Source: Sedimentisphaerales bacterium
GTDB taxonomy: Bacteria > Planctomycetota > Phycisphaerae > Sedimentisphaerales > SM23-30
Direction: 5' to 3'
NCBI GenBank assembly: GCA_028281535.1
Contig: JANQJS010000049.1
Coordinates: forward strand, 62,001 to 126,000
Length of the DNA stretch: 64,000 nucleotides
Shown: positions 2,201 through 19,099 of the stretch, piece by piece
Numbering within the stretch: position 1 is the first letter of the stretch
How the letters are laid out: every line of letters begins with the position of its first letter
The notes under the pieces: generated by a model
The model's input: only the letters and a program-made list of their open reading frames with translations
The model's database searches: none
Told to the model about the DNA's origin: nothing
Made by a program: the position numbers and the translations under genes

Positions 2201-2288
2201 GGGTATTTATGAATCTATTTATGTACTATTTCCAATTAACAGCATCAGTACTCTATATTTACTACAAAATAAATCTGAAATACTTGCC

Positions 2289-3032: not shown

Positions 3033-3407
3033 TATTCTGGCCTCCCGCTGTATTCATTTACTTGTTATTACCTAGATCAGGTGTTCTCAAGATTTAAGAC
3101 TTGTTAGCAATAGCTTAAGCTTGACAAACATAAATAATAATTCACATACTGATTTGAATGTGTTATCAGCTGATTAAATTTTTACAAAAAACAGCAACCG
3201 CCTAACCTGCTCTTAATTATACAATTACAGGAGTTGTCGGGCAAGCCTATAATCTGATTGTAAAAATGATTTATTTTCAAAGTAAGAATACAAAAAAAAA
3301 ATTGTAGTAAATGGTGAAAGAAGCAGAATAGAAAACAAATCATTTCTAATATTATCTGACTTCTAGAAAAATAACAATACTCATTTATCAGGGAAGGACT
3401 AAGGAAA
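3033..3407. other. Divergent intergenic region, 375 bp
   Basis: AT-rich spacer between the divergent sigma factor and PEP-CTERM genes. It must hold both promoters, but no convincing -35/-10 pair or operator stands out. The stretch CAGGGAAGGACTAAGG just before 3408 supplies the plus-strand ribosome-binding site. Confidence 0.5.
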
Positions 3408-4055
3408 ATGAGAAACCACATTATTATACTAATTATTGCATGTCTTTTGTTGTCCATTTGTCGTGTTTCAACTGCAAGTCTGGCTATTACGGAAATTATG
3501 TTTTCCACCCATTATCCTGACAGCAATCCGGATCAGTATTGGTGGGAATTAACCAATCTTGGGTCAGATGTGATAAACCTAAATGGTTATTCGTGGGATG
3601 ATTCCAGTGCTCAACCGGGGGAATTTATTTTTCCAAATATGAATATTGTTCCTAGCGAATCAATCATTATACTTCAGCATTCAGCAACCGTTTCGGATTT
3701 CGAATCTGTATGGGGATTAGCTCCTGGTTCTATTCAGATACTTGTTCCCTTAGACTTTGGTGTGTCTGCATTTCCAGGTTTTTCAATCAATGACACAATC
3801 AATATCTTTTCGCCATCGCCTGATAACAATTTAGTTGATTCTAAATCGGGAATACCCGGTAATACGACGCAGGGCATATCAATCGAATATCTACCCGGTC
3901 TGTCGATAAGATCGAGCGTGCCAGGTGAAAATGGAGCTTACATTGCCCCGGGGATCACACCTGATGAAGTCGGTTCACCGGGTGTGGTACCAGAACCTTG
4001 TTCTATTACCTTATTAGGATTGGGCGGCTTAACGTTCATCAGAAAACGTCAATAG
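3408..4055 (+). CDS. Secreted lamin-tail-domain protein with PEP-CTERM sorting signal
   Basis: 215 residues. An N-terminal signal peptide (about 1-24) precedes a lamin tail domain-like region: LAITEIMFS, then WWELTNLGSDVINLNGYSWDD, matching the usual start of bacterial LTD domains. The extreme C-terminus is a PEP-CTERM signal: VPEP, a short hydrophobic stretch (ITLLGLGGLTFI) and a basic RKRQ tail. Such proteins are exported by Sec, then processed by an exosortase and placed on the surface or in the EPS matrix. An exosortase gene is present in this window at 56287. The protein carries no catalytic motif and is probably structural or adhesive. Confidence 0.85.
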   Translation: MRNHIIILIIACLLLSICRVSTASLAITEIMFSTHYPDSNPDQYWWELTNLGSDVINLNGYSWDDSSAQPGEFIFPNMNIVPSESIIILQHSATVSDFESVWGLAPGSIQILVPLDFGVSAFPGFSINDTINIFSPSPDNNLVDSKSGIPGNTTQGISIEYLPGLSIRSSVPGENGAYIAPGITPDEVGSPGVVPEPCSITLLGLGGLTFIRKRQ

Positions 4056-4132
4056 TAATGTAATTCAATGGCACATTTTGATAAATCTTCAACTAAAATT
4101 TTGACAAGACATTAGTGTCAAGGAGGCACAAA

Positions 4133-5956
4133 ATGAAAAAAACTGGAATAATTTTTTTGTTTACGGTCATCATTATCAACAATATATTATGGGCACAGCC
4201 ATCAGTTATTCAGGGGCCTTTAACTTATCCTGCAAATGATCATACCTATTATTTGTTAGATGCCAGTTCATGGACAGATGCTGAAGCTGCGGCTGTAAGT
4301 TTGGGGGGGCATCTTGTTACAATAAATGATCAAGATGAAAATAATTGGGTCTGGAAAATGTTTTATCCTGGACACCCCAATGATCCCAATGATCCGGACC
4401 CGCATTTGTGGATTGGACTAAACGACATTGATTCCGAAGGAACTTTTGAATGGACCAACGGTGATCCTGTTACCTTTACCAACTGGGACAACAATCAACC
4501 AAGTAACTCCGGTGGTATTGAAGATTATGTTGGTATGTGGGAAGTACCGCCGCCGGATGCATCCGGCATTGCTGGAAAGTGGAACGATTTTGATAACTTA
4601 CCCCCGGTAAGCAGTCGTATCGGATACGGTGTTGTAGAAATTATTGAGCCAGAAATGGGATCATGGATATTCATGCCCTCAATGAACACAGAGCGGCAGG
4701 CACATAATGCCGTATTGGGGCAGGATGGTTACATTTATGCTGTAGGAGGAAGGGATAGTAGCAATATTGTTTTGCCTTCAGTTGAACGCTATGATAGAAG
4801 TACGCGACAATGGACGGCTGTTGCTTCAATGAATAGCCCTCGGTGGTTACATGAAGTTATCGAATGTAATGGTTTTATTTATGCTATTGGCGGAAGAACT
4901 CAGGCAAGCATTTTATCTACAATGGATGTCTATGATCCGCAATTAGATAGTTGGAATATCTCTCCCTATACATTAAACATCCCTAGAATTCATTTTGCGG
5001 TTACAAAAGATCATAGCGATAAAATATATGCTATTGGCGGAATAGATATTAATGGTGTTATCATTGATTCTGTTGAAGTTTTTGATCCTGCAAATCCGGC
5101 TTTGGGCTGGCAAATTCTTGGACACAATTTGAATGAAACGAGAGGTTATTTAGGGAGTGGCACCGATACGCTGGGGCGAATTTACGCTATTGCTGGGGCT
5201 ACATCAACTATTTCCAACAGTGAAACAGTGACTGTAGAACGATTTGACCCAGAAAATCCTTCTGCAGGTTGGACCTATGGTCCAAGCCTTAATCAAGACC
5301 GTCAAGTTGGAGCCTATGCAACAGATTGTAAGGGAACAATATATGTGTTGGGCGGATGGGCTGGTGGATCTGGTCCTCATTTAACTACTGTTGAAGTTTA
5401 TGATCATGCGACGGATAGTTGGGTTTTACATTCAAATATGAACCGAGCGATTAATCATTTTGCAGCCGCATTCGACATGCAAGGGAATTTATATGCCATT
5501 GGGGGTGAACACTTTAATACACAGGAAGAAGTAGAAGCTATTAAAGCATATAAGCCGCTATCTATTAATGCACCAAACGGCTTGGAATCTTTGCTTGTAG
5601 GAGAAAATTTGTCCATTTTATGGGAGGGAATTGAATGCATTGATACTGTTGCAATAGATTATTCTGATGATTGTGGTGTAACTTGGCAGGCAATCGATCC
5701 AAATACAGAAAATGATGGTAATTATGTGTGGGTTCCTTCTCAAATAAATTCTGACCAGTGTATTATCCGTGTTTGTGATATTTCTCAACCGGCTGTTTGC
5801 GATGCAAGCAATCAGTTATTTACAATATTTGAATGCCAGGAAACATTAACTGCGGATATTGACGGCAATTGCTTTGTTGATATAACCGATTTTAGTCTGT
5901 TTGTTTTACAATGGCTTTTAGGAGGAAATCCATTTGATCCGGGTTGGATACCTTAG
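4133..5956 (+). CDS. Secreted C-type lectin / Kelch-repeat protein with dockerin-like C-terminus
   Basis: Start placed at ATG 4133, seven bases after AAGGAGG (4120-4126); an in-frame GTG at 4115 lies upstream of that site and is unlikely. A signal peptide covers about 1-24. Residues about 30-175 form a C-type lectin-like domain (SWTDAEAAAVSLGGHLVTI, LWIGLNDIDSEGTFEWTNG, GKWNDF). Residues about 180-470 carry six Kelch-type blades with repeated IYAIGG and VEVYDP motifs. A short Ig-like stretch follows, and the last 40 residues are one dockerin-like repeat (ADIDGNCFVDITDFSLFVLQWL). Likely an extracellular glycan-binding or adhesion protein. It may share a transcript with the PEP-CTERM gene upstream (77 base gap). 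Confidence 0.85.
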   Translation: MKKTGIIFLFTVIIINNILWAQPSVIQGPLTYPANDHTYYLLDASSWTDAEAAAVSLGGHLVTINDQDENNWVWKMFYPGHPNDPNDPDPHLWIGLNDIDSEGTFEWTNGDPVTFTNWDNNQPSNSGGIEDYVGMWEVPPPDASGIAGKWNDFDNLPPVSSRIGYGVVEIIEPEMGSWIFMPSMNTERQAHNAVLGQDGYIYAVGGRDSSNIVLPSVERYDRSTRQWTAVASMNSPRWLHEVIECNGFIYAIGGRTQASILSTMDVYDPQLDSWNISPYTLNIPRIHFAVTKDHSDKIYAIGGIDINGVIIDSVEVFDPANPALGWQILGHNLNETRGYLGSGTDTLGRIYAIAGATSTISNSETVTVERFDPENPSAGWTYGPSLNQDRQVGAYATDCKGTIYVLGGWAGGSGPHLTTVEVYDHATDSWVLHSNMNRAINHFAAAFDMQGNLYAIGGEHFNTQEEVEAIKAYKPLSINAPNGLESLLVGENLSILWEGIECIDTVAIDYSDDCGVTWQAIDPNTENDGNYVWVPSQINSDQCIIRVCDISQPAVCDASNQLFTIFECQETLTADIDGNCFVDITDFSLFVLQWLLGGNPFDPGWIP

Positions 5957-5968
5957 TTACTAATTAAT

Positions 5969-6004
5969 CGCCCTCAGGCACAAATATTTTGATGTCTGAG
6001 GGCG
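5969..6004 (+). terminator. Hairpin after lectin/Kelch gene (possible terminator)
   Basis: Nine-base arms CGCCCTCAG and CTGAGGGCG enclose an 18-base AT-rich loop, 13 bases after the stop codon. There is an A run but no T run after the stem on the plus strand, so it is not a textbook intrinsic terminator. It may instead be a 3'-end stabiliser. Confidence 0.45.
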
Positions 6005-6058
6005 AAAAAACGAACAATCTGAATAATTAAGGAAAAATTCACTCTTCGACTAGATTTT

Positions 6059-6081
6059 TTATGCATACTAGCTATGCATAA
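6059..6081. promoter_or_regulatory. Perfect 9-bp inverted repeat, candidate operator
   Basis: TTATGCATA, a five-base spacer CTAGC, then TATGCATAA: a 23-base palindrome with no mismatch in the arms. It lies about 180 bases upstream of the 1906-residue protein gene. The size and symmetry suit a dimeric regulator. The binding factor is unknown. Confidence 0.4.
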
Positions 6082-6261
6082 GAACCTGAGTTGGCTATAG
6101 TTTGCGTCTATTCAAACTATTAAGAGAAATCATAGGTTTATATTAAAATAAACTTGAATCTAGTTGTATTTGTGTTTAAATAAAATTGTCTTTCAGTTGG
6201 GTAAAGGGTTTTCGTGTTTCGCGTCAAGAAAATACTACCTATGTAGTGAAGGAGAAAAGGG

Positions 6262-9200
6262 ATGGGTAAAAATAATATTGCGAAATACTCCATATTAAAA
6301 AAAAATCTTATTATATTTATACTATTATTAAATTATGACTATCTCCAAGCTGATGAAACAATCGGCTTGGAAGGAAAAGCTTGGCCACCATTCATAATAA
6401 ATCAAGTATATACTCCTTGGTGTGATGAGGCTATTCATCTTTTTGGTGGTACAATGTGTAAATCCAGTGCACATGATTTAGATAATAATGGGCAATGGGA
6501 CATAGCAGAGCCACTTTTATTAAATCACCGAGCTCTAGCAGGGGCATTTCAAATAGGCACATCAAATTTGTGGACAATTGATACTATAAGACAGTGCTTT
6601 CGAGTACCCTATACTGGGAGCTATAGAGGTCGACTAACTTTCACATTAAACCAAAAAGCTATAGCTGTAGGTGCAACATTTTATGGTGAGTCAAGAAGTG
6701 ATTTCGATATCGTTCTAAGGGCAGGACTTTATGATGATGGCACCTTAATTGGTGGCTTAGGCACAGAATCTCTTTACACATCACCTCCCTGGGATTTTTG
6801 GGAGCAAAGCATGCATGCAACAATCGATTTGTTTCTTGCCTTATATCCACAAGGAATATGGATTGAGGCAGGCACTGTTGTTTTAGATTATGCTGAAGAC
6901 GTACTTAGTTCAGGAGAAGTAGATGATGCAAGAATAAATAATCGATTATATAATTTTGACTTTTTAGTTGATTTAGAATCGGGTGTTGATTATGAGTGGC
7001 TAATTCAAATTGATTCCACATGTTTTGCACAAAGCTTCACTCTATTGGGCAATCAAATATCTCTAATTAACACAGTTGTACAAGTTGATAATGTACAAAT
7101 ATCACCTAATTATCCCGAACTTGTTGTTACTGAAACATCTAATACACAAAATGACAACCAAATAGAATTTGGAAATATCCCAGCAGGAGTACAATCAACA
7201 GAAACTTTCACCGTAACCAACAATGGAGGAACAAACCTTCTAATAGGAAGTTGGGTATCTAGTAATGGTGCTTTCACCCTCTTGCCAAATAATCCATATG
7301 GAGTAGGAGGAGATGTAACACTTGCTCCAGGTGAATCAATGGACGTAGACATTACATTTTCACCACAATCAGAAATTAATTATAGTGGTCAAATTGGGAT
7401 AAGTAGTAATGATCCTATTAATCCCAATTATTATTTACAGATTTCTGGCACAGGTGTTGCCAGTCGTACAGCAATTAATGTCACTGCCACACCACCCACC
7501 ACTAATATAAACACACCTGTAACTATTTCGGTAACCGTATATGATGATTTTGGTAGTTTAGTTGGGGCCGGTTCTCAGGTTGATTTTGTAACAACAGATT
7601 CTGGTCAATGGTCTAATTACGATAGTTTATCCACTTTTGGTGTTTATGGACTGACTAATAGTCAAGGAGTTGCTTCGGTGACTTGGACGCCTAATGATAT
7701 TGGTATAGATGCTATTACGGCAACCTCTGAGTTTGGTGAATCAGGAAATACTTCGGTTAATGTAGCTGTAGAGACGCTAAATTTTACAACAGAGCTTAAT
7801 AAAATCAGTGGAGATGAATCGTCTTCTTTTTATCTTTTCAGGGCAACAATAACAGATCAAAACAGTCAACCCATTGCCTTTGAAAATGTAAGTTTTCAAA
7901 CAACCAAAGGCACTCTTCAAAATACTGACACCAGTACAAATGCAGCCGGTGAATGTGAAACTAATATTACAACAACCGAGTCAGGTCCTGTAATTATCAC
8001 TGTCACAATTTTTGGTCAAGCCCACTCGACTTCTGGTGTATTCCAGGTAGGTGCTATACCAAGTTTCCCTGCTGGGAGAATTTTGCCAGTCGGTATTACA
8101 ATAAATAGCTTGGATTTAAGTTCCGATGGAACAAAACTAGCCTTGGGGGGAAATACCAGTGTGGCTTCTGTAAATATAAACACCGAAGTCATACAATCCG
8201 GTAACTTTGGAGAAATCAACAACGGCATCCTTGCCGTCGCTTCTAATGATAATGGTAACATGATTGGTTTGGGAATAAGTTTCAGGCAAAGAGGAATTGT
8301 AACTGTTGGTGGATCATTAACCGGAACATTTCCAATAACTAATAGCTCGGAAGGAATTGGCGATGGTTCCGCAGCCGCATGGTTAGGTAGTAAATTAATA
8401 TTGGGCCATCAGATTACAAGTACTAAACCTAATCAATTCAGTCTTTATGATACTAATGCTTCCTTGCTTTCAAAGACATATTTTACCACAGATGATGTAG
8501 AAGATATTCGACGAATTGTTGTACATCCAGTTTCGTCATCACAGTTCGCCGCCATCAGTGAAGGTCCTGACAGTAGCAATCATAATTATATATATTATGG
8601 ATCATTAAGTGGTAATACAATATCATCTATAAATTACTTTCTTACCCCTTTTGAAAACCGTGGTTTAGCTTGGTCTGCAGATGGATCTCAATTGGCAGTG
8701 GGTAGTGGTCCGAATACCGCACAAATAGCTGTCTATAATACTAGTGCACTAGGAAGTGGAACGCCATCGGCAACAATTGTTTCTATACTTGGCGATGCCG
8801 AACATATAGCTTTTTCAGATGATGGTACATATATGGCGTATGCCGGAGATGGAAGTGATGATATTTACATTCACAATGCATCAAATTGGAGTGCGATCTA
8901 TCATATAATCTCAAATCAAGGGTGCAAAGGGTTAGAGTGGATACCAGGAACTCATACATTAATCACAGGGGGCGGTCAACAAATTCAATATATAAATCTC
9001 GATGATACACAGTTGCCTAATGTTTCAATTACATCTCCTTCAAATGGCCATCAAACCCAGGATAGCACGATTAATATTATTGGGCAAATCACAGACTCTA
9101 ATGGAATAGATTCTGCACGATTACGTAACAATGCTGGTGTTTGGGAAGACCTTACACTCGATGGCTCGGGGAATTTCAATCATGTTGTTTCTCTTGTTCT

Positions 9201-11982
9201 TGGTGAAAATATTATTGAAGTTGAAGGTACTGATAATACTGGATGGTCTAGTGGGGATGCTGTATCTGTTAATCGATTTAATGATAACACCGCCCCAGTT
9301 TTAATAAATCTATCTATTTCTCAAAGTGCTTTCAGACCAAGTGAAATAGTCGTTCTAACAGCAACAATCACAGACGATAATTCTGGTGTTGATGAAAGTT
9401 CAGTAGCTGTTGAAATTGAAATACCAGATGAAACTGTTTTAAATACCCTTAATTTAAATTTAGTTTCAGGTAATGATTATTCTACAAATTGGGATACAAC
9501 AGGGCAGGTTTCTGGGACTTACTACGTTGATCTTTCTGCCTGTGATAGTGAAGGAATTCCTAATTGCCTTAGCGAAAATAATGCAGGATCTTTCATTGTC
9601 AACGAAGCTCCATCATGTAATATTACTGCACCAACTAGTGATGTAGTCATTGGAGCGGGTAATACGTTTTTACTGGAATGGAATAGTTCAGATGCAGATA
9701 GCAATTCTCTTTCATCATTATATCTTGATGTAGATGGAAACCCTGCTTCTGGTTTAATCCCAGTTCCAGGTGGATTAGGACTAAATGAAGCCGTGACGAA
9801 TTTAGAGTTAAATGCAAATGATTTTTCCGATGGTGAATATTATGTTGTTGTAGAAACCTCAGATGAATATGGCACAGTTCATACTATTGCTACAGGAAAG
9901 ATCACCATATTTTTACATGATTTATGTACAAATGCTTTAAGTATTGAGCAAGGAATTCCATATAATGGTTCCAGTGTTGGGGCAACAGGTTCGAATAATA
10001 GCAGCTGTGGCATTAATGACCCTAACGATGTATGGCACTCTTTTTCCCCACAAGAATCTTGCCATTATAACATCAGTCTTTGTGGCAGTGGATTTGACAC
10101 CACACTTTCTATTTTTGATGGATGTGGGGGGGCAGAATTAGCTTGTAATAATAATTATTGTAATTTTCAATCTCTTGTCACAATAGGTTTAAAATCAGGG
10201 CACACATATTTAATTCGTATATCTGGTGAAAATGATGCTACGGGTGACTATACATTGAATATTTCTAAGGTAGCCAAAGGTGATCTAGATTTAGACAATG
10301 ATTCTGATATTTTAGATTTGAATTTATTTGTTCCTAACTGGCTTGATCCGAATTGTAGTTATCCTGATTGGTGTAATAGGGCTGATCAGGATTTAAGTGG
10401 TAATGTAAACGCTAAAGATTTCTCAAATATTTCAAATAATTGGCTGAATGAGGACCCAAACATAAGTGATCCCAACTTTAGTTATATAATTACAACTTAT
10501 GCAACCCTACCTCTAGGGGTCGCTGCTCAACTCGATTTTGATTCTTCGGGATATCTATATGCAGGTATTGACGGATATGGTTCTACAATTTCAATTTATC
10601 GTGTAAGTCCAGGAGGGGCTTCTGTAGCACCTTATGGGCCAGTTGCTTTTTCAGGTCCATACTCTGTTGCTGTAGATGATGAAGGTTTATTTACAGGAAT
10701 GCCGGGGGCGATATTGGTTGGTGATTCCGGAAAAGTATCTATTATAGACCCCAATGAAAATTCTCAAACATTGACAACTTTTAATGGGCGAGCAGAGCGT
10801 TTGACGCTAAGTAGTGCTGGGAGGCCTTTCTTTTGTAATGCATCAAGTGGTGAATCAAGTATTTATGAAATTCTCGGTGCAACTTTGGATGAAATATATG
10901 AAGATGGTTGTGCTTGTGGCCCTTATGATATCGCTATAAACTCTTCTGATCAAATATTTACAACATATTCAAATGGGGAGATTATGCTTAATAATATTGA
11001 TGGGGCTATCATAACAGATCCATATGCTTCACTGGGCCAAAACGCTAGTATGTATATTGAGGTTGGGCCTGGAGGTCATTGGGATACAGATCTTTATATG
11101 GGAACCAACACAGGATTTCTTTACAGAATTAATTCTACGGGCCAATTAACAGAGATAGCACGTGATTTGGGTAGTATACGTGATTTAACTTTTGGTCCTG
11201 ATGGTGCAATGTATCTCTCGGTCGATCAAGATTCTAAAATTCTAAAAGTTACTTACGAATCGATAAGTGAAGATACTCAATTAACCGGGCCTATGGTCTT
11301 AGTGGATGCGGGTTCTTTTCCTTATCAAAATACTGCCAATCCGCAAAACTGGGTTTATGTTGATACTTTTTTGATTGGAAAATACGAGGTGGCCAATTCT
11401 CAATATGTCCAGTTTCTTAATGCTGCTGATCCTGATGGCAATTATTGGGATAGTAATCAAGAGATAATGCAAAATGGTAGTCCCGGAAACTATAGCTATG
11501 TAGTACAAGTAGGTAGAGAAAGTTATCCCGTTCGATATGTTAGCTTTAATGATGCGCAAGCTTATTGTGCTTGGTTAAGTGGGCAAACCAGCCAAGTGTA
11601 TCGTTTACCGACAGAACATGAATGGGAAAAAGTTGCAGGATGGAACCCAATTGAACAGCATCATTATACTTATGGATATAATCAGGATATTCATGGTTGT
11701 GAATGGCTGAATTATGATAGTTGCTATGGTTTATTACCAGTTGGAAGTTTTAATGGAACAGATGGAAAGCAAGATGCTAAATCTTATTATGGATGTTATG
11801 ATATGAGTGGTAATCTCCGAGAACATACTTCTACGATATGGTCGGGTACCAGCAATGTTATACGTGGCGGTTACTGGCTTGACAATGAATCGGACTGCAG
11901 GGTAATCACACGTGGTGGTGGCGATCCTCCTACAACGAGAGCGAAGGATGTCGGATTTCGTATCGTCCTAGATTTAAATTAA
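6262..11982 (+). CDS. Giant secreted multidomain protein: Ig-like, propeller, dockerin-like, C-terminal FGE-sulfatase-like domain
   Basis: 1906 residues with an N-terminal signal segment (to about 31) and a strong ribosome-binding site. Rough order: unknown N-terminal domain; choice-of-anchor-D/ASPM-like Ig domain (about 281-398, ends QISGTG); Big_1-like Ig domains (400-593); a WD40-like propeller (601-913); further Ig-like domains (917-1220); a PPC-like domain (1220-1335); two dockerin-like repeats (about 1340-1400, GDLDLDNDSDILDLNLF and DQDLSGNVNAKDFS); an NHL/SMP-30-like propeller (1412-1667); and an FGE-sulfatase (SUMF1-fold) domain (1677-1906: PTEHEWEKVAGW, YDMSGNLREH, VIRGGYW, GFRIV). 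The closely spaced cysteine pair of true formylglycine-generating enzymes is not visible, so the last domain is more likely binding or structural than catalytic. Probably cell-surface. Confidence 0.85.
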   Translation: MGKNNIAKYSILKKNLIIFILLLNYDYLQADETIGLEGKAWPPFIINQVYTPWCDEAIHLFGGTMCKSSAHDLDNNGQWDIAEPLLLNHRALAGAFQIGTSNLWTIDTIRQCFRVPYTGSYRGRLTFTLNQKAIAVGATFYGESRSDFDIVLRAGLYDDGTLIGGLGTESLYTSPPWDFWEQSMHATIDLFLALYPQGIWIEAGTVVLDYAEDVLSSGEVDDARINNRLYNFDFLVDLESGVDYEWLIQIDSTCFAQSFTLLGNQISLINTVVQVDNVQISPNYPELVVTETSNTQNDNQIEFGNIPAGVQSTETFTVTNNGGTNLLIGSWVSSNGAFTLLPNNPYGVGGDVTLAPGESMDVDITFSPQSEINYSGQIGISSNDPINPNYYLQISGTGVASRTAINVTATPPTTNINTPVTISVTVYDDFGSLVGAGSQVDFVTTDSGQWSNYDSLSTFGVYGLTNSQGVASVTWTPNDIGIDAITATSEFGESGNTSVNVAVETLNFTTELNKISGDESSSFYLFRATITDQNSQPIAFENVSFQTTKGTLQNTDTSTNAAGECETNITTTESGPVIITVTIFGQAHSTSGVFQVGAIPSFPAGRILPVGITINSLDLSSDGTKLALGGNTSVASVNINTEVIQSGNFGEINNGILAVASNDNGNMIGLGISFRQRGIVTVGGSLTGTFPITNSSEGIGDGSAAAWLGSKLILGHQITSTKPNQFSLYDTNASLLSKTYFTTDDVEDIRRIVVHPVSSSQFAAISEGPDSSNHNYIYYGSLSGNTISSINYFLTPFENRGLAWSADGSQLAVGSGPNTAQIAVYNTSALGSGTPSATIVSILGDAEHIAFSDDGTYMAYAGDGSDDIYIHNASNWSAIYHIISNQGCKGLEWIPGTHTLITGGGQQIQYINLDDTQLPNVSITSPSNGHQTQDSTINIIGQITDSNGIDSARLRNNAGVWEDLTLDGSGNFNHVVSLVLGENIIEVEGTDNTGWSSGDAVSVNRFNDNTAPVLINLSISQSAFRPSEIVVLTATITDDNSGVDESSVAVEIEIPDETVLNTLNLNLVSGNDYSTNWDTTGQVSGTYYVDLSACDSEGIPNCLSENNAGSFIVNEAPSCNITAPTSDVVIGAGNTFLLEWNSSDADSNSLSSLYLDVDGNPASGLIPVPGGLGLNEAVTNLELNANDFSDGEYYVVVETSDEYGTVHTIATGKITIFLHDLCTNALSIEQGIPYNGSSVGATGSNNSSCGINDPNDVWHSFSPQESCHYNISLCGSGFDTTLSIFDGCGGAELACNNNYCNFQSLVTIGLKSGHTYLIRISGENDATGDYTLNISKVAKGDLDLDNDSDILDLNLFVPNWLDPNCSYPDWCNRADQDLSGNVNAKDFSNISNNWLNEDPNISDPNFSYIITTYATLPLGVAAQLDFDSSGYLYAGIDGYGSTISIYRVSPGGASVAPYGPVAFSGPYSVAVDDEGLFTGMPGAILVGDSGKVSIIDPNENSQTLTTFNGRAERLTLSSAGRPFFCNASSGESSIYEILGATLDEIYEDGCACGPYDIAINSSDQIFTTYSNGEIMLNNIDGAIITDPYASLGQNASMYIEVGPGGHWDTDLYMGTNTGFLYRINSTGQLTEIARDLGSIRDLTFGPDGAMYLSVDQDSKILKVTYESISEDTQLTGPMVLVDAGSFPYQNTANPQNWVYVDTFLIGKYEVANSQYVQFLNAADPDGNYWDSNQEIMQNGSPGNYSYVVQVGRESYPVRYVSFNDAQAYCAWLSGQTSQVYRLPTEHEWEKVAGWNPIEQHHYTYGYNQDIHGCEWLNYDSCYGLLPVGSFNGTDGKQDAKSYYGCYDMSGNLREHTSTIWSGTSNVIRGGYWLDNESDCRVITRGGGDPPTTRAKDVGFRIVLDLN

Positions 11983-12187
11983 GTTTCTTCGATTCATGAC
12001 TCAAAAATAAGATTTTATGGCAGTGAATTTGACACTGTCAATATCGATGAGGCTAAACATTATTTTGAGGCATTCGACCGAATACAAACTAATTATACGG
12101 GTAATAGTAACACGAAATATTTACCTTATATTGAATGGTATAGTGATAAGAATGGACGATGCGTATTGGAGTTTGAGCCGTCGCAGG
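11983..12187 (+). pseudogene. Orphan coding fragment in frame after the 1906-aa gene stop
   Basis: The frame continues open for about 68 codons past the TAA at 11980-11982 and reads like real protein (YGSEFDTVNIDEAKHYFEAF, then YIEWYSDKNGRCVLEFEPSQ). It has no start codon of its own and then runs into a minus-strand LamG fragment near 12183-12188. It is best seen as the remnant of an unidentified gene, or the edge of a rearrangement or misassembly. It does not resemble the VWA piece further right. Confidence 0.45.
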
Positions 12188-12636
12188 TCAGTAATACATA
12201 TCCTCAATTTCAGAAGCCAATAAAGCCCTATCCCAGATTTTAAATTCATCTAATTTTCCTGAGAAATAACTCGCTGGATTCCCGTTAAATGCACCCAAGA
12301 ATTGGTTTGCATTTACACCTACGGAATTCACCGTACCATTTTCATGATTTATTAGATTTTGCAAAACACCATCTAAATAGATTTTCATTCCTGAATTATT
12401 CGCCGATGATTGAGTAATTGTTACCATGTGCCAATTTCCATTTCTATATGTCGGATTCGTCATATATACTTCCATTTCGTGTATTCCATCATAAAGAGAA
12501 TAACTTAATGTATTTGGAAATCTATTAGTAAAAATCTGTAAATAATTCGTACCGTCCCATGCTGCAAATATTCGCTGAACTGAACTTGCGGTTGTATTAA
12601 TCCAGAAATTTATTGTTTTACTTGAAGATATGTACG
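12188..12636 (-). pseudogene. Truncated LamG (concanavalin-A-like) domain fragment, inverted
   Basis: About 149 codons in a clean minus-strand frame ending at a stop at 12188-12190. Typical LamG motifs are present: INFWINTT near the start, NWHMVTITQSS, KIYLDGVLQN, and the closing DEFKIWDRALLASEIEDMYY. The N-terminal part, with any signal peptide, is missing: the similarity begins abruptly at about 12636, where the plus-strand VWA fragment starts, and a stop closes the frame just beyond. This is the 3' end of a secreted LamG protein in inverted orientation between two other gene pieces. Confidence 0.6.
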
Positions 12637-13056
12637 ACAAATTTCACTCGGGCACTCAAATTGGCCGAAAATAAATTCTCTACTAGCGGGCCCATTCAGA
12701 TGCGAATAAATCCTCTGGCAAGTTATCTGAAAGAATTACTTGTCGAACCAGCAGATTCAAATCCTGGTAAGCGAAATGGCAACCATAGCAGCATGACACG
12801 ACGAGTTATATTGCTAACCGATGGTGATCACAATGAGGGCGGATCACCGGCGAAGATCGCCAAACGCTTGAAAAACGCAGGTGTCATCATCGAGTGTATT
12901 GGAATTGCCGGGCAGTCGAGTGAAGTCAATGAGACTCTCCTTAAAAAAATTGCCTCTCTGGATGAGCAAGGTAATCCCAGATATTGTTTTATTGGCGATA
13001 CGGCCAATTTGATTAAGCAATATAAAAAAATGTCTTACCATATTAAGGCCATATAG
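12637..13056 (+). pseudogene. C-terminal half of a von Willebrand factor A domain protein
   Basis: The plus frame opens abruptly with TNFTRALKLAENKF, the internal T-[NF]-x-x-AL segment of a VWA domain (third MIDAS element). It continues with RRVILLTDGDHNEGG, then GVIIECIGIAG and YCFIGDTANLI, the usual end of the fold. The N-terminal half with the DxSxS motif is absent, and upstream bases belong to the inverted LamG fragment. An in-frame ATG at 12613 lies inside that LamG sequence and is not a native start. The gene is therefore broken, but its 3' end and the following gene appear intact. Confidence 0.6.
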
Positions 13057-13068
13057 AAAGGAGAGAAT

Positions 13069-13347
13069 ATGATTATCGTAAGCCCCTTAAACACATTTTT
13101 TACGTTGTTAATCACCGCGATGAATATTGTGGAAGTCTTTTTGTTCGTACGATTCCTGCTTTCATGGAAGAAGATTCATTGGCTGCAATCCTTTGATTCA
13201 GCGGGTAAACCACTGACAGACCAGTTTATTTCTCTGGTAAATAAAATTACTTATCGAATCAAACAGAAACGCTTAACCTGCCAGGGATGCCTTATCGTTG
13301 GGATTTCTATTTTTGAAATGACCAAACTGTTGCTTTGTAGCATCTAA
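13069..13347 (+). CDS. Small YggT-like membrane protein
   Basis: 92 residues with an AAGGAGAG ribosome-binding site before ATG 13069, 12 bases after the VWA fragment stop. The N-terminal helix (about 5-33) leads into FLFVRFLLSW and LTDQFI, reminiscent of the YggT family (alpha-helical membrane protein with a short conserved loop). A second hydrophobic stretch lies near 75-92. It may have been in an operon with the VWA gene before that gene was damaged. The family call is tentative. Confidence 0.5.
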   Translation: MIIVSPLNTFFTLLITAMNIVEVFLFVRFLLSWKKIHWLQSFDSAGKPLTDQFISLVNKITYRIKQKRLTCQGCLIVGISIFEMTKLLLCSI

Positions 13348-13356
13348 ACAAATATT

Positions 13357-13614
13357 ATGGAAAATAATTCAGAAAAATCAAAAATACGACCAGCCAAAAT
13401 ATTATGGGTGAGTGAGGTTGTTAAATATCTAGGACTAGACCGACTGGGATTAGCTCGTCCAGACAAAGCAGTTTATCGTCTTGTTGAGAAAGGGGCATTA
13501 AATCCTATAAAAATTTGTGGACATCTTGCATTTTCAAAGAGTGAAGTAGATAGGTTATTGACTAATGGGGATCAAAAGCCAAGGCGAGGACGACCTCGCA
13601 AATCAAATTATTAG
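13357..13614 (+). CDS. HTH (excisionase/MerR-like) DNA-binding protein with AT-hook tail
   Basis: 85 residues. The core (about 14-68) looks like a HTH_17-type winged helix: ILWVSEVVKYLGL, AVYRLVEKGALNPIKICGHL, FSKSEVDRLL. The end, PRRGRPRKS, is an AT-hook (GRP core flanked by basic residues) that would add minor-groove binding. Such small proteins serve as recombination directionality factors or regulators of accessory elements. No ribosome-binding site is obvious before the ATG. It stands just ahead of the DUF6602 gene and may regulate the neighbouring accessory genes; that is inference. Confidence 0.6.
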   Translation: MENNSEKSKIRPAKILWVSEVVKYLGLDRLGLARPDKAVYRLVEKGALNPIKICGHLAFSKSEVDRLLTNGDQKPRRGRPRKSNY

Positions 13615-13693
13615 CCATTTCTATTTTAGCTTTAATGTCTTACAATATTTGTTATTATTTGTTTTATGCCGATGACTTGATAAGGAGTTAAAT

Positions 13694-14461
13694 ATGGTTG
13701 AACAAAATTATAAGAAATATTGGGAAAGCATAAATAGCAGCTTGGAATCTACAAAAGATCGTGTCAGAAACTTAATAGGGGGGCGACATTGGTTGACTGA
13801 AGGCACATATAAAGAAATTATTCTTAAAAAAACTCTTGAGAGACATTTGCCAGAAGATTTAAGTATTTGCACGGGGTTTGTATGTAATAAGGACAAAATT
13901 TCATCTCAAATAGATTTACTAATTATAGATAAATCAGCTTACACTTTATTTAAAGAAGGCGATCTTGTTATTGTTACCCCTAGTGCAGTGCGTGCAATAA
14001 TTGAAGTAAAAACTCGATTGGAGAGTATGTCAAAGATTGATAAAGCACTTGCAAAATTATCTAAAAATGTAAAATTATGTAATCAAACTTTAAGTAATAA
14101 AAGAACATCATTGTGGTCGGGGTTATTTGTTTATGAATCTGATGATAAAATCAAAGACGTTTTACTTTCTCTTAATAATTCATGGAATGAGCATGAAGGG
14201 TATATAAACTGCGTGGCATATGGTAGCAACGAGTTTGTTAGATATTGGTTTGACTATGATGGTCAACACGAACATCGTTGGGTGTCATATAACCTGGCCA
14301 ATCTTGCAGCAGGTTATTTTGTAGGAAATATGATTGCTGACTTAACACCTAATTTGGGATGGGAAGACGGGGAGATATTATTTCCAATTGAAGGCACAAA
14401 AGAAACTAAGCGAAAGTATTATATAATGCGAGGTGATAATAATTCGGTCGAAGAATTTTAA
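13694..14461 (+). CDS. DUF6602 domain protein, nuclease-like
   Basis: 255 residues, AAGGAG ribosome-binding site. The region about 30-115 matches the DUF6602 pattern: an EGTYKE element, a CTGFVCN segment, QIDLLIID and AIIEVKTRL. The D...E-x-K arrangement (the Asp of QIDLL, then E and K of IEVK) is the signature of PD-(D/E)XK nuclease folds, suggesting DNA or RNA cleavage. Family members are widespread, uncharacterised and often found in accessory regions. It is convergent with the 442-residue protein gene and could form a two-gene defence-like unit with it. No methyltransferase is nearby. The domain call is moderately sure; activity is inferred. Confidence 0.65.
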   Translation: MVEQNYKKYWESINSSLESTKDRVRNLIGGRHWLTEGTYKEIILKKTLERHLPEDLSICTGFVCNKDKISSQIDLLIIDKSAYTLFKEGDLVIVTPSAVRAIIEVKTRLESMSKIDKALAKLSKNVKLCNQTLSNKRTSLWSGLFVYESDDKIKDVLLSLNNSWNEHEGYINCVAYGSNEFVRYWFDYDGQHEHRWVSYNLANLAAGYFVGNMIADLTPNLGWEDGEILFPIEGTKETKRKYYIMRGDNNSVEEF

Positions 14462-14484
14462 TAAAAAAATTTCGTTTTGTATAA

Positions 14485-14502
14485 ATTTAATTATTATTAA
14501 AT
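14485..14502. terminator. AT-rich hairpin between convergent genes
   Basis: ATTTAAT, four-base loop TATT, then ATTAAAT: a perfect seven-base stem between two convergent stop codons. It may end transcription from both sides but is weak (all A/T). Confidence 0.3.
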
Positions 14503-14536
14503 CGAATTTTACTCAATATATCTACAACGGTAAAAA

Positions 14537-15865
14537 TTAATCCTCTGGGTAGTTATCTTCAATTTTTACTTTATCACCATCGGCACTTGCATTTTTGACC
14601 GCTATGGTAATGGCCCTTCCACTTTCTAATGTGTTGTTTATGGCATCGTCAAGAATTTTAGATTGGAATTGTGTAGTGCCAACCCAAGCTTGAGAAACCA
14701 GCGTAATAAATGAAGTATTGTTTAAATATCTTCCTGCGTTTTTATACGTTAGTTTCTTACCTCCGTGAGGTCCATATAGTTCTGAGGCATTTTTCAGCAA
14801 AGCCCAGTGATCTAAATGTATATACATACCTTTTATTAGCTCTTGGTCGTTTGGGGAAAATTGTAACCTAGGACAAAATTTCAAAAAGAAAGGGTTGTCA
14901 TTAAAACGAAAACCGTTGTGGTGCGTCTCTTGTGGGCACTTTTTTAATTCTTTGATGATTGCTTCCATACGAGATATTTCATCATTGAGTTGCTTGTTAG
15001 GAAGCCTAAACACGGTTTCTTTATCTTCTTTTTCCATGGCTTTATATTGCACCATAACAAAAGCATGAAAATCTTCATTGTAATATATTAGGTCTGTGCC
15101 AGTTAATTGCTCCAATGGTAATCTATTAGCAAGAACAACGGTTAGTTTTTCTCCACTACTGCCTCTGAAGATAGCGGCCCCATATTTTGTATTTTTTATA
15201 TGTTTATATCCTGGAACGGTAGACCAATCTGTTGCCAGCATTTGATCTTCTCTTAGGCGTGTTTCATCGAGGCCATCTAAAAAAGATTCTGGCTTTTCAT
15301 CGCTTGTTAAAACCCACTTTTGTAATTCTTCTCTATCAATGTTTGATATAGCCATAGCGGTAGCTATTGCTTCTTTTTGAGTGGCTAAAGAAAAGCGTTC
15401 ATTATCAGAAAGTCGTTCAAGCCTTAAGTGATATGATTTCCCAAAACGTGCCAACAGTTTTTCTGTTTTTGGGTATAATTCCAAGATAGTGTCGATAAAA
15501 GACTCAGATGTTTTTGGCGGTAAAACGCCTCCATCATTAATGCGGTTAGACACATGCCTTTGCACGGTTCTAGGGATATTTTTAAGTATTTTTTCTAACG
15601 AAAAAGGCTCTGATAGTTTTTCAGCCTCCAATATTTTCAAACGCTTTAAATTTGTACCTGCAGTCTGACCTTTTTTCCCTTTTCCTATGTGCGTGATTTG
15701 TTCCTTATCGTTCACAACGAAACAGATAAGTGGCAAATTTCTGCTGTGCTTGAAATCAGACACAGGCTCAGAAAATTCTCCTCTCCATTCGAATTCGTCT
15801 TTAAAGAGCTCATAACGGTCTGACGATAGCTTTACAATAAAACAACCTACTTTATTAGTATCCAT
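14537..15865 (-). CDS. Hypothetical 442-residue protein of accessory region
   Basis: I do not recognise a family. The protein looks soluble: no signal peptide or membrane helix, mixed alpha/beta, 442 residues. The N-terminal part (about 45-70: LPLICFVVNDKEQITHIGKG) could be a small beta domain. Residues about 225-275 (YGAAIFRGSSGEKLTVVLAN, YNEDFHAFVMVQYKAM) look like a nuclease-like or restriction-like beta core with a VQYKA element. Residues 280-320 are a charged helical segment. Gene order is convergent with the DUF6602 gene, and its upstream side faces tRNA-Pro, a common integration target. A defence or mobile-element role is a guess from context only. Confidence 0.5.
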   Translation of the reverse strand: MDTNKVGCFIVKLSSDRYELFKDEFEWRGEFSEPVSDFKHSRNLPLICFVVNDKEQITHIGKGKKGQTAGTNLKRLKILEAEKLSEPFSLEKILKNIPRTVQRHVSNRINDGGVLPPKTSESFIDTILELYPKTEKLLARFGKSYHLRLERLSDNERFSLATQKEAIATAMAISNIDREELQKWVLTSDEKPESFLDGLDETRLREDQMLATDWSTVPGYKHIKNTKYGAAIFRGSSGEKLTVVLANRLPLEQLTGTDLIYYNEDFHAFVMVQYKAMEKEDKETVFRLPNKQLNDEISRMEAIIKELKKCPQETHHNGFRFNDNPFFLKFCPRLQFSPNDQELIKGMYIHLDHWALLKNASELYGPHGGKKLTYKNAGRYLNNTSFITLVSQAWVGTTQFQSKILDDAINNTLESGRAITIAVKNASADGDKVKIEDNYPED

Positions 15866-16070
15866 GATAGCTTTCTTCTATACTTTGGCTAGGTTCTGAA
15901 GCTGGCAGAGGGGGGTGAGATGTTTAGATTTACAGCTAGAAACACTAGAAAAATGGGGGAAAATGCATAAAAAAAATCATTCTGCATAAAACCTGCATAA
16001 ATTTAGTCAGCATTAAATAGCGTTAATTCACCCTGTTTTTTTAAGTTGTTATCTCTTAAAGAGATAGAAA
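15866..16070. other. Spacer with three TGCATAAA direct repeats
   Basis: Between the 442-residue protein start and tRNA-Pro. It holds TGCATAAA at 15964, 15983 and 15994, all in the same direction, and a small palindrome TATCTCTTAAAGAGATA at about 16050-16066 just past the tRNA 3' end. No gene is seen. Confidence 0.4.
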
Positions 16071-16145
16071 TCGGGGCGACAGGACTTGAACCTGCGACCT
16101 CAGCACCCCCAGTGCTGCGCGCTAGCCAAACTGCGCCACGCCCCG
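16071..16145 (-). tRNA. tRNA-Pro (anticodon GGG)
   Basis: Reading the minus strand, a seven-base acceptor stem CGGGGCG pairs with CGCCCCG, followed by discriminator A. The anticodon arm is CAGCA-CTGGGGG-TGCTG, giving anticodon GGG (plus positions 16108-16110). The T arm contains GGTTCAAGTCC. Length is 75 bases and CCA is not encoded. The four-arm layout is complete. Confidence 0.93.
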
Positions 16146-16304
16146 AACCAGATTTGTTGCCAAATCTGTAATTCGTTATATTAGCGGATTTTAGCTTTTA
16201 GGTCAAACATTGCTTAAGGCATTTGTCAGTTGTTGATATATAATGAGTTATGGAAGGAAATGGTCAAAGATCGTTTGGGGGCCCAAACTTTGTTTGAATT
16301 TTTC

Positions 16305-16341
16305 TTGCTCGAATTCATTTCCCCGCTTATACTTATAGTAT
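16305..16341 (+). promoter_or_regulatory. Promoter of the DtxR-type regulator with overlapping palindrome
   Basis: TTGCTC (16305-16310), 17-base spacer, TATACT (16328-16333). The -10 box overlaps a perfect inverted repeat ATACT-TAT-AGTAT (16329-16341), which suggests autoregulation by the protein encoded downstream. Confidence 0.5.
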
Positions 16342-16367
16342 GTATTAAAAAGTAGTAAAGGGCTCAG

Positions 16368-16847
16368 ATGCATAACGAAGAGAAAAAAGTTTTAAGCGAT
16401 CATCAGGAAATGTACCTGAAAACGATCTATACGCTGATTGAAGATCATAAAGTTGCTCGTGTGAAGGAAATTGCCGAAGTATTGAATGTCACCAAATCTT
16501 CAGTAAGTGGGGCACTTAAGTCTTTGTCTGAAAAAGGTTTAATTAAATATGAAGCCTACAGTTATGTGGATATGACTGAAAAGGGCCAGGAAATGGCCTC
16601 AATGCTGCTTAATAAATTTGATGTATTCACCGATTTTCTCATGTCTGTACTGGAAGTCCCTGAAGACGTGGCACGTGAAAATGCCTGCCGCATGGAGCAT
16701 GTCGTGGATGATGAAGTCATGCACAAGCTGATCCAATTTATGGAATTTTGCAAAAGCTGCGAGATCCAATGTTGGAAAGATATCAGTGATCCAAGCCAAC
16801 TCAAATTGGCCAAATGCTGCATGAAAGAAGAGGCTGAAAAAGAGTAA
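16368..16847 (+). CDS. DtxR/MntR-family metal-dependent transcriptional regulator
   Basis: 159 residues with an AAAGGG ribosome-binding site. Residues about 10-75 form the winged helix (YLKTIYTLIEDHKVARVKEI, then TKSSVSGALKSLSEKGLI). Residues 75-145 form the metal-binding/dimerisation domain (ENACRMEHVVDDEVMHKLIQ, with the usual E and H ligands). The end is cysteine-rich (CKSCEIQC and later KCC), a pattern seen in short family members that lack the SH3-like third domain. It lies 123 bases before feoA, so its likely job is to repress ferrous iron uptake when iron is sufficient. The promoters of both units carry related palindromes. Confidence 0.88.
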   Translation: MHNEEKKVLSDHQEMYLKTIYTLIEDHKVARVKEIAEVLNVTKSSVSGALKSLSEKGLIKYEAYSYVDMTEKGQEMASMLLNKFDVFTDFLMSVLEVPEDVARENACRMEHVVDDEVMHKLIQFMEFCKSCEIQCWKDISDPSQLKLAKCCMKEEAEKE

Positions 16848-16894
16848 GACGTCTACTAATCTTCAGAAAAAGCAAAATTTTTTAGCTTTTATGT

Positions 16895-16937
16895 TTGGCA
16901 GACCGAACAAATTGTTGTATACCATACAGTATTGGTA
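16895..16937 (+). promoter_or_regulatory. feoAB promoter with overlapping inverted repeat
   Basis: TTGGCA (16895-16900), 17-base spacer, TATACC (16918-16923). TACCA (16920-16924) and TGGTA (16933-16937) form an inverted repeat over the -10 box. It shares TATAC and AGTAT half elements with the regulator's own promoter, so it is a plausible operator for the DtxR-type protein. Confidence 0.5.
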
Positions 16938-16970
16938 CTACATTGATTTGTTACCTCAGGAGAACAAAAT

Positions 16971-17186
16971 ATGAATTTAGCAACATTAAAGCCTGGAACA
17001 AGTGCCGTTATTAGTGAGATTGCGGGTGGAGATGAACTTTCAAGTCGCTTGGAAGAAATTGGATTCAATCCTGGCTGTGAAGTTTCTGTTGTATCGCGAA
17101 CTCCATTTCGTGGACCAGTTGCTGTTGCTATCCGAGGAACAACAATCGCATTGCGAGAAAATGAAGCAAGCCGCATCAAATTATGA
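16971..17186 (+). CDS. feoA: Ferrous iron transport protein A
   Basis: 71 residues, an SH3-like beta-barrel of the FeoA family: LATLKPGTSAVISEI, LEEIGFNPGCEVSVV, TTIALRENEASRIKL. AGGAG lies seven bases before the start. The stop overlaps the feoB start by four bases (ATGA), so the two are translationally coupled. FeoA is a small cytoplasmic partner needed for FeoB function. Confidence 0.93.
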   Translation: MNLATLKPGTSAVISEIAGGDELSSRLEEIGFNPGCEVSVVSRTPFRGPVAVAIRGTTIALRENEASRIKL

Positions 17187-19099
17187 CCACACCCTCCTCT
17201 GCCACTAAGCAGCGTCAAATCACTCTTGTTGGTCCGCAAAACGCGGGCAAAACCACTCTATTTAATAGTCTGACAGGGTCTAGCTACAAGACTGTCAATT
17301 ATCCCGGTTCGACGGTGTCTTATTCGGTTGGGCAAGTGCAGAAAAAATATGATGTGGTTGCCAGTGTGAAAGATACACCTGGGATTCCCAATCTGACCGC
17401 TTCGTCTGCGGATCATGAAGTAACTTTGAAGGAACTTTTTTCGACCGATAGTCAGAATGATTTAATTTTGGCTAATGTTGATGCAACGCAATTGTCTCGT
17501 CATCTTTATGTAATTGATCAATTGAAGGAATGTGGGTTTCCAGTTTTAGTGTGCGTGACGATGGGGGATTTACTCAAACAGCGGGGCAAAGAAATTGATC
17601 TTAAGTTGTTGAGCGAAGAATTAGGTTTGCCTGTGACTTTGGTTGATCCGCGTTGTCCGCTTTCGGTGGGGCAGTTAACGCAAAAAATCCAAACGTTTGA
17701 TGTGGAAAAATCTTCGAAGGTTCAGCGTCTTTTCGAATCCTCGCAAGATAAAGATGCGATTCAATCGCGATTCAAAAAAGTCGAAGCGATTGAAGCAAAA
17801 GTTATTAAAGCTATTCCAGGAAAAGAAAAAGAACCCTTTAATTGGGACCGTCTCTTTTTGCATAATATTTTTGGCGGCTTGATTTTCGCCACGATTATGG
17901 TGGGCATTTTTTCATCGATTTTCTGGTTGGCTGGTTGGCCGATGGACTGGATCGATGCGGGTACGAGTTGGCTGATGGATGTGGCGCGAAACAGTTTGCC
18001 AGAGTCCTGGCTAACCGATATGGTGGTCGATGGTGTGATTGCAGGGATTGGTTCTGTGGTGATCTTTCTGCCGCAGATTATCATTTTGTTTATAGCGATG
18101 GGGATATTGGAAGATTCAGGTTATCTCGCACGGGGTGCAACGATCATAGATAAGCCATTAACCAAAATGGGGCTCAATGGAAAATCCTTTTTGCCTTTAT
18201 TAAGTGGGTTTGCTTGTGCGATTCCAGCGATGATGGCGGCACGAACCATTGAGAGCCGTAAAGAACGTTTGATTACGATTTTTATTGTTCCTTTGATGAG
18301 TTGCAGTGCTCGGTTACCCGTCTATGTATTGCTTTTGGCATTTCTTATTCCTGAGGATAAACCTTGGATCGGCGGATTAGCCATGACGGCGTTGTATGTT
18401 GGCGGCATTGTGGTTGGTGCGGTCGTTGCGACAATTATTTCACGATTACCTTCGTTTCGTCATCGAGGCAAAAGTCCTTTGATGTTGGAGTTACCCGCAT
18501 TTCGCAAACCGATCTTGAAGGTGGTGGGTGTGAGCACCTATCATCGCAGTATGCATTATCTGAAAAAAGCAGGGCCGACGATTATCGTGATTTCATTAGG
18601 ACTTTGGTTATTGACGCACTTACCGGTGGTTCCGAGTGATTCGTCAGAAGGTGGTAGTGAGTATGCCACAGTATCGCAATCCTATGCCGCAAAACTGGGC
18701 AAAGTGATCGAGCCTGTTGTTGAACCGATGGGCCTTGATTGGCGGGGCGGTGTTGCGATGACGATGGGCTTTGCCGCTCGTGAAGTTTTTGTGGCGTCCA
18801 TGGCATTGATGTACCGCATCGAAGAAGAAGACGAAGATGAATTACAAAATCGACTGCTTGCCTCCATGCGAACTGCGACGTTCGATGGCACCGATAAACG
18901 CATATTTACTACCTCCAGTGCGATAGGACTGTTATTTTTCTTTATGGTTGCACTGCAATGTTTCCCCACAACCGTCACCGCCAAAGCGGAATTAGGCGGT
19001 TGGAAAATCCCTCTCATTCAATTAGTCGTCTACACCGGCAGCGCCTGGCTAGGAGCGGTCACCATCGTACAAACCTTACGTGCGATGGGCTTTTCATAA
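17183..19099 (+). CDS. feoB: Ferrous iron transporter B
   Basis: 638 residues. The N-terminal G domain has the P-loop GPQNAGKTTLFNSL, DTPG as G3, and TMGD where most FeoB proteins have N[MK]xD as G4. A helical spacer leads to the membrane part from about residue 225, with two Gate motifs including LMSCSARLPVYVLL. The length is short for the family (E. coli about 770), as in many Gram-negative anaerobes. It imports Fe(II) across the inner membrane. It overlaps feoA and is probably controlled by the DtxR-type regulator upstream. Confidence in function is high. Confidence 0.95.
   Translation: MTTPSSATKQRQITLVGPQNAGKTTLFNSLTGSSYKTVNYPGSTVSYSVGQVQKKYDVVASVKDTPGIPNLTASSADHEVTLKELFSTDSQNDLILANVDATQLSRHLYVIDQLKECGFPVLVCVTMGDLLKQRGKEIDLKLLSEELGLPVTLVDPRCPLSVGQLTQKIQTFDVEKSSKVQRLFESSQDKDAIQSRFKKVEAIEAKVIKAIPGKEKEPFNWDRLFLHNIFGGLIFATIMVGIFSSIFWLAGWPMDWIDAGTSWLMDVARNSLPESWLTDMVVDGVIAGIGSVVIFLPQIIILFIAMGILEDSGYLARGATIIDKPLTKMGLNGKSFLPLLSGFACAIPAMMAARTIESRKERLITIFIVPLMSCSARLPVYVLLLAFLIPEDKPWIGGLAMTALYVGGIVVGAVVATIISRLPSFRHRGKSPLMLELPAFRKPILKVVGVSTYHRSMHYLKKAGPTIIVISLGLWLLTHLPVVPSDSSEGGSEYATVSQSYAAKLGKVIEPVVEPMGLDWRGGVAMTMGFAAREVFVASMALMYRIEEEDEDELQNRLLASMRTATFDGTDKRIFTTSSAIGLLFFFMVALQCFPTTVTAKAELGGWKIPLIQLVVYTGSAWLGAVTIVQTLRAMGFS

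Follow-up and report, generated by a model that had tools for sequence, protein, structure and literature searches.

How three unrelated gene fragments came to lie on alternating strands with no spacer between them is the question raised by a short scar in the window, by which we mean the whole 64,000-nucleotide stretch of DNA analysed here. A plus-strand fragment (fragment 1, 11983–12187), a minus-strand fragment (fragment 2, 12188–12636, its frame continuing to 12640) and another plus-strand fragment (fragment 3, 12637–13056) follow one another directly, and, as the sequence-only reading had described, the frames stay open up to the junctions, over 86, 151 and 151 codons. The ends of homology coincide with these junctions. 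Fragment 1 tracks its protein family to '..EPSQV' and departs from it at ~12186–12189, the stop codon of fragment 2 (12188–12190) overlaps the fragment 1 frame, the homology of fragment 3 begins at 12637, and the end of the fragment 2 frame, beyond ~12636, overlaps that last junction. Fragment 1 starts directly after the stop codon (11980–11982) of an upstream gene encoding a 1906-aa protein, in the same frame.

The genome searched comprises 4.44 Mb in 67 contigs and is 99.4% complete, with the scar lying in a contig of 227.8 kb (C43). It had been proposed that the parent genes be sought elsewhere in the genome; no intact parent or missing half was found there for any of the three fragments, and the only match to the stretch 11983–13068 was the stretch itself. 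The 15-mers at the three junctions are single-copy within C43:1–126000, and no inverted repeats longer than 29 nt were found within 6000–16200. Spacerless junctions, single-copy 15-mers and the lack of such repeats are as expected of illegitimate joining.

Fragment 2, encoding 150 aa plus the stop codon, is a scrap of a LamG gene. It matched the Pfam profile LamG_3 (concanavalin A-like) at 6.6e-18 over profile positions 17–150 of 151, and is an almost complete domain that lacks the initial ~16 profile positions and continues through the stop codon of the gene. There are several LamG copies in the genome, the closest being 32% identical to fragment 2. Matches at 1e-6 were found in 30 of 58 relatives (31 of 59 genomes when the source genome is included), the best-scoring ones showing 32% identity over nearly the whole fragment and up to 40% over parts of it.

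Fragment 1, the orphan, gave no Pfam match. A model built from relatives only, when run against the frames of the window, returned fragment 1 as the one clear match (9.3e-10, 34.4 bits), with the runner-up frame at 0.024 and no match among reversed proteins. At E ≤0.1, it had matches in 8 of 58 relatives. Seven of these were clear, with E-values no worse than 3.2e-4, and the eighth stood at 0.07; the clear matches are proteins of ~300 aa, whole or in part. In the one relative tested, a DUF2958 domain was detected at the C-terminus, and the fragment, corresponding to residues ~47–119, aligns N-terminal to this domain. The remainder of the DUF2958 protein was not found in the 99.4%-complete genome, so that the scrap is its only copy there; the complete protein and the neighbours that it has in relatives were not found, and only residues ~47–119 remain. 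The ATPase of the neighbourhood had no match here, in a search run without a positive control. Plasmid matches to the DUF2958 protein were found in 32 of 72,556 records, none covering more than 80%, and the 12 listed reach the C-terminal half at most and not the part kept in the scar. An assignment of fragment 1 to a plasmid replication protein was dropped, as its relatives are DUF2958-type proteins.

At five loci in relatives (L039, L040, L043, L044 and L045), a DUF2958-type protein lies near an Hsp90-like ATPase, a JAB-like gene and ThiF genes; the ATPase and the JAB-like gene score below the Pfam cut-offs (L040), and ThiF was called from Pfam at L040, from NCBIfam at L044 and by eye at the others. 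PRTRC cassettes are named for their ParB-related and ThiF-related proteins. The DUF2958 clusters resemble them in having ThiF together with a JAB-like gene, the latter below its Pfam cut-off, and differ from what the window holds, which is a scrap only. Membership in PRTRC was rejected, since the one ThiF protein tested, that of L044, scored 17.4 bits where the PRTRC ThiF model has its cut-off at 144.75. At both loci tested for an integrase (L040 and L041), one was present close to the DUF2958 relative, and the clusters are perhaps a mobile ubiquitin-like gene cluster; a limited literature search found no paper on DUF2958 among the matches listed. A link between the DUF2958 and VWA systems through genome G033, where they are ~26 kb apart, was set aside as weak, with cas-like and unrelated genes, called by eye, in between.

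Fragment 3 matched the Pfam VWA profile at 1.1e-8 over positions 96–166 of 174, its C-terminal half, and represents the C-terminal ~138 aa of a VWA protein of ~234 aa. Its best relatives, 42–49% identical to it, are the VWA proteins of gene sets that also encode GrpE and Hsp70. Missing from fragment 3 are the N-terminal ~98 residues of the family, among them a DxSxS stretch present in 8 aligned relatives. Models built from relatives only gave 1.2e-45 for the VWA half and 1.6e-22 for TM1, the small membrane-type protein that follows VWA in these sets. No second VWA protein of this family was found in the genome, where the half is the only copy. A genome-contig scan with the half returned just one distant locus (34%). 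VWA relatives were found neither on plasmids nor on phages or viral contigs.

In relatives, the order of genes is a GrpE-like gene (often), Hsp70, VWA, 1–2 small membrane genes, an HTH gene and a tyrosine integrase. Gene sets in this same order, often beside tRNA genes, were seen at L030, L033–L038, L094–L104, L108 and others. Of the order's 161 genomes searched, 20 have a VWA match at 1e-15, the source genome included, and the whole gene set was checked in part of these 20. We compared 28 of ~30 VWA loci, the source copy aside (G053:C33 and G061 were left out); they are not all independent, as several share a genome or a genus. Hsp70 lies upstream in 25 of the 28 and a detectable GrpE in 12, TM1 is present in 22, and a same-strand integrase follows downstream in 17.

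A tRNA gene lies within 6 kb downstream of VWA in 16 of the 28 loci (142,817 bp readable), and within 6 kb upstream in none (118,281 bp readable); the 12 loci with no downstream tRNA include several that lack it owing to contig ends. The 3′ end of the tRNA faces the gene set in 15 of the 16, G129 being the exception, and the tRNAs concerned stand for five amino acids (Arg, Asp, Met, Ser and Phe) and eight anticodons. When displaced copies of the tRNA 3′ ends were sought at these sets, the stretches read gave chance scores of 21–26 of 46, except at G129. There (L095, G129:C44:407883–410282) the 3′ end of a tRNA-Ser(GCT) is repeated 2.3 kb away with 45 of 46 positions identical, the tRNA lying between this repeat and the VWA gene set, and a mini-island at the same tRNA is a possible explanation. 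As the stretches read showed no such repeat bounding the relatives' sets, it is the integrase and the tRNA that argue for these sets as integrated elements, and the missing repeats are the chief weakness of that reading. Tentatively, and with somewhat less than even confidence, we read them as undescribed tRNA-targeting integrative elements carrying GrpE-Hsp70-VWA chaperones and two membrane proteins, possibly with a role in defence or conflict, of which the copy in the window would have been dismantled and refilled with other defence-like cargo, namely a DUF6602 or NucC-like nuclease and a 442-aa plasmid-type protein.

What follows fragment 3 in the window agrees in part with this order. The gene for TM1 (13069–13347, plus strand) is full length and encodes 92 aa. 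It is followed by a gene for an HTH_17-like, excisionase-like protein of 85 aa (13357–13614, plus strand) at the position of the relatives' HTH gene. This protein matched HTH_17 at 1.6e-5 (25.5 bits against a cut-off of 27), was 29% identical to its counterpart at L030, scored weakly with the relatives' model (E 0.025), and showed its likeness to excisionases in matches to excise (0.0084) and phrog_66 (0.0073). Judged by similarity and order, the VWA half and TM1 are a remnant of the relatives' gene set, and the HTH gene is probably part of it too. Hsp70 and GrpE are absent upstream of the VWA half at the locus, so with VWA and TM1 present we regard it as a remnant and not as a member of the GrpE-Hsp70-VWA sets; the single Hsp70 that the genome search returned is 33% identical to the Hsp70 of these sets, and its frame of 645 codons is DnaK-like in size. 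TM2 had no match downstream of the VWA half in the window, and four integrase queries had none at 1e-3 between the HTH gene and the tRNA (13614–16070).

The place of the relatives' integrase is taken by a gene on the plus strand (13694–14461) for a DUF6602 or NucC-like protein of the PD-(D/E)xK nuclease type (DUF6602 1.5e-19, PD_DExK 1.7e-21, NucC 2.6e-12), 39% identical to a Vibrio plasmid protein and with relatives in 12 of 72,556 plasmid records; from its domain matches, it is a possible lone defence effector. Next, on the minus strand (14537–15865), lies a gene for a 442-aa protein without Pfam, NCBIfam, PADLOC or PHROG matches at the limits used. It is 45.5% identical over 98% of its length to a Pelagibacterium plasmid protein and has relatives in 10 of the 72,556 plasmid records, a likeness that suggests transfer between distant bacteria. 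Compared with the relatives' sets, the window thus shares the C-terminal half of VWA, TM1, probably the HTH gene, the order and the orientation of the tRNA; in contrast, it is without GrpE, Hsp70, the first part of VWA, TM2 and the integrase, and instead has the DUF6602 gene and the gene for the 442-aa protein.

The tRNA in question is tRNA-Pro(GGG) (16070–16146, minus strand), the proposed integration site and the only match when 11000–17500 was searched against Rfam. It lies 3014 bp downstream of the VWA half on the opposite strand, with its 3′ end facing in, as in 15 of the relatives' 16 loci. Within the window alone no repeat of this tRNA was found, the far copy being seen in the contig upstream: the 46 nt of the 3′ end (16070–16115) recur with 43 identical, in the same orientation, at C43:49808–49853, a site that precedes the window by 12.2 kb and lies 28.3 kb upstream of the tRNA. 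The best score among 30 equal-length Markov sequences, on both strands, was 27 of 46, and the next-best real matches reached 24 (same orientation, C43:1–80000) and 26 (other strand, C43:1–126000). Just inside the repeat, ~11–12 kb before the window, a tyrosine integrase is encoded in two frames (C43:50056–51164), its first piece matching phrog_1 at 8.8e-17 and Pfam at only 0.15 and its second piece matching Phage_integrase at 1.7e-7. As the integrase is read in two frames, the gene is broken; its first piece was not found on plasmids.

The proposed island thus spans C43:49808–78146 (28.3 kb), of which positions 1–16069 belong to the window and the scar lies near the tRNA end. Its tetranucleotide distance from the flanks is 0.149, whereas 21 overlapping, equally sized windows taken from the flanks reached 0.120 at most; its GC content is 0.379, against 0.392–0.424 across 21 windows of that kind, all on one contig. 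Among the cargo between the repeats are a lectin/Kelch protein, a glycosyltransferase and an RHS-repeat protein in which a dockerin-like match was seen. The 1906-aa protein, which carries a sulfatase-modifying-factor domain, lies there too, as do two genes called by eye, one kinase-like and the other sigma-factor-like, the second without a Pfam match at 1e-5. Between the broken integrase and those of the VWA sets there was 41% identity over 46 aa (E 0.001); as this likeness is only distant, at least two elements have to be assumed. A third copy of the repeat that could mark the boundary between elements was not found. Positions 1–16069 of the window lie inside a decayed, mosaic tRNA island, and the failure to find repeats at the relatives' tRNAs in the stretches read does not affect this.

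Just past the tRNA (16368–19099, GC 0.441) are genes for an iron-dependent repressor, a FeoA-like ORF recognised by eye and FeoB, and this segment is chromosome outside the island. The iron-repressor gene is 36–46% identical to its counterparts in other genera, and none of 13 loci in relatives has an adjacent tRNA. A comparison with an empty site by way of this gene was abandoned, the relatives being too distant and no genome of the same genus standing among the matches listed.

Several explanations for the scar can be weighed against these observations. Its frames are all open, and full-length TM1 and HTH genes follow closely, which would suit fragments retained as small working proteins, for instance a reduced operon of VWA half, TM1 and HTH. 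We consider this unlikely, however, since the VWA half has lost the family's first ~98 residues with the DxSxS stretch, and its first listed start is a TTG at 12613, within the LamG stretch; the fragments would accordingly not be expected to function as proteins. The sequence-only reading had also allowed for a chimeric join made in the computer and not in the cell, and a draft assembly of 67 contigs, spacerless junctions and three unrelated sources are what such a join could present. Yet the stretch and the junction 15-mers are single-copy where searched, and thus offer no repeat that would invite misjoining, three misjoins would be needed within ~660 bp of a 227.8-kb contig, and the VWA half, TM1, HTH gene and tRNA keep the order of the relatives, which a chimera does not predict; this explanation is accordingly quite improbable.

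A simple recent inversion, or another local rearrangement of resident genes, was the other suggestion, and the alternating strands and still-open frames fit it. An inversion would leave the other halves behind, and none was found for the VWA or the DUF2958 protein, nor any LamG copy above 32%, nor an intact parent; with the further lack of long inverted repeats around the scar, a recent local inversion is not supported and appears very improbable. Short open frames packed closely in mixed orientation also recall an integron-type cassette array, but the junctions leave no room for a recombination site and every piece is only part of a gene, making this barely credible. What stands from the initial suggestion is recombination, here of three unrelated gene fragments that abut directly within a decayed tRNA island, and we hold with good confidence that the scar is debris in a decayed, mosaic genomic island at tRNA-Pro(GGG).

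The debris may have formed as follows. An element with a tyrosine recombinase would have entered the 3′ end of tRNA-Pro, displacing a 46-nt copy to a place 28.3 kb away beside its integrase, which was presumably frameshifted later. More than one element probably entered the same tRNA site in succession, and the tRNA-proximal end would once have held a set of the GrpE-Hsp70-VWA-membrane-HTH-integrase type. GrpE, Hsp70, the front of VWA and the integrase of the set could then have been lost, with the DUF6602 gene and the plasmid-type gene for the 442-aa protein coming to occupy that place. Deletion and end-joining, which we infer to have proceeded without homology, may also have removed most of the DUF2958 gene and left the LamG scrap in between, so that illegitimate recombination would have fused the break in VWA to an inverted LamG scrap and to a DUF2958 scrap. 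The order of these events is likewise the one that appears most plausible to us.

Islands at tRNA genes are described, in the portion of the source available, as having direct repeats of 16–20 bp, a mosaic make-up and mobility genes that decay rapidly (PMC6917214). Those of the Islander type, with a tyrosine recombinase, resemble the present island in the displaced tRNA 3′ end, the adjoining integrase, the deviating composition and the mosaic cargo; unlike them, the island here has a frameshifted integrase, a longer repeat (46 nt with 43 identical) and the remains of gene sets of two or more unrelated kinds. A limited literature search, poor in subscription titles, found no description of a GrpE-Hsp70-VWA set with an integrase at a tRNA. 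Among the closest systems described are the conflict systems with chaperones and vWA proteins of Kaur et al. 2020. In the sections available, conflict systems pair vWA proteins with chaperone ATPases, one GAP1-N2 theme combining HSP70 and GrpE (PMC7159879). The systems described there are MoxR-vWA and GTPase-centred HSP70/GrpE ones, unlike the relatives' sets, and those sections contain no GrpE-Hsp70-vWA unit that brings its own integrase and sits at a tRNA, the word 'integrase' being absent from the main text as available (PMC7159879).

The scar itself is ordinary island decay, and mosaic tRNA islands in which the mobility genes have decayed are a known kind, as far as the available part of the source goes (PMC6917214). 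The value of the scar is that of a pointer. It led to a tRNA-Pro island that takes in the window's initial 16 kb, and also to GrpE-Hsp70-VWA gene sets whose association with tRNA genes is one-sided. If the sets of the relatives are mobile elements that carry their own chaperones, then what benefit these chaperones bring to the element or to its host would become a testable question.
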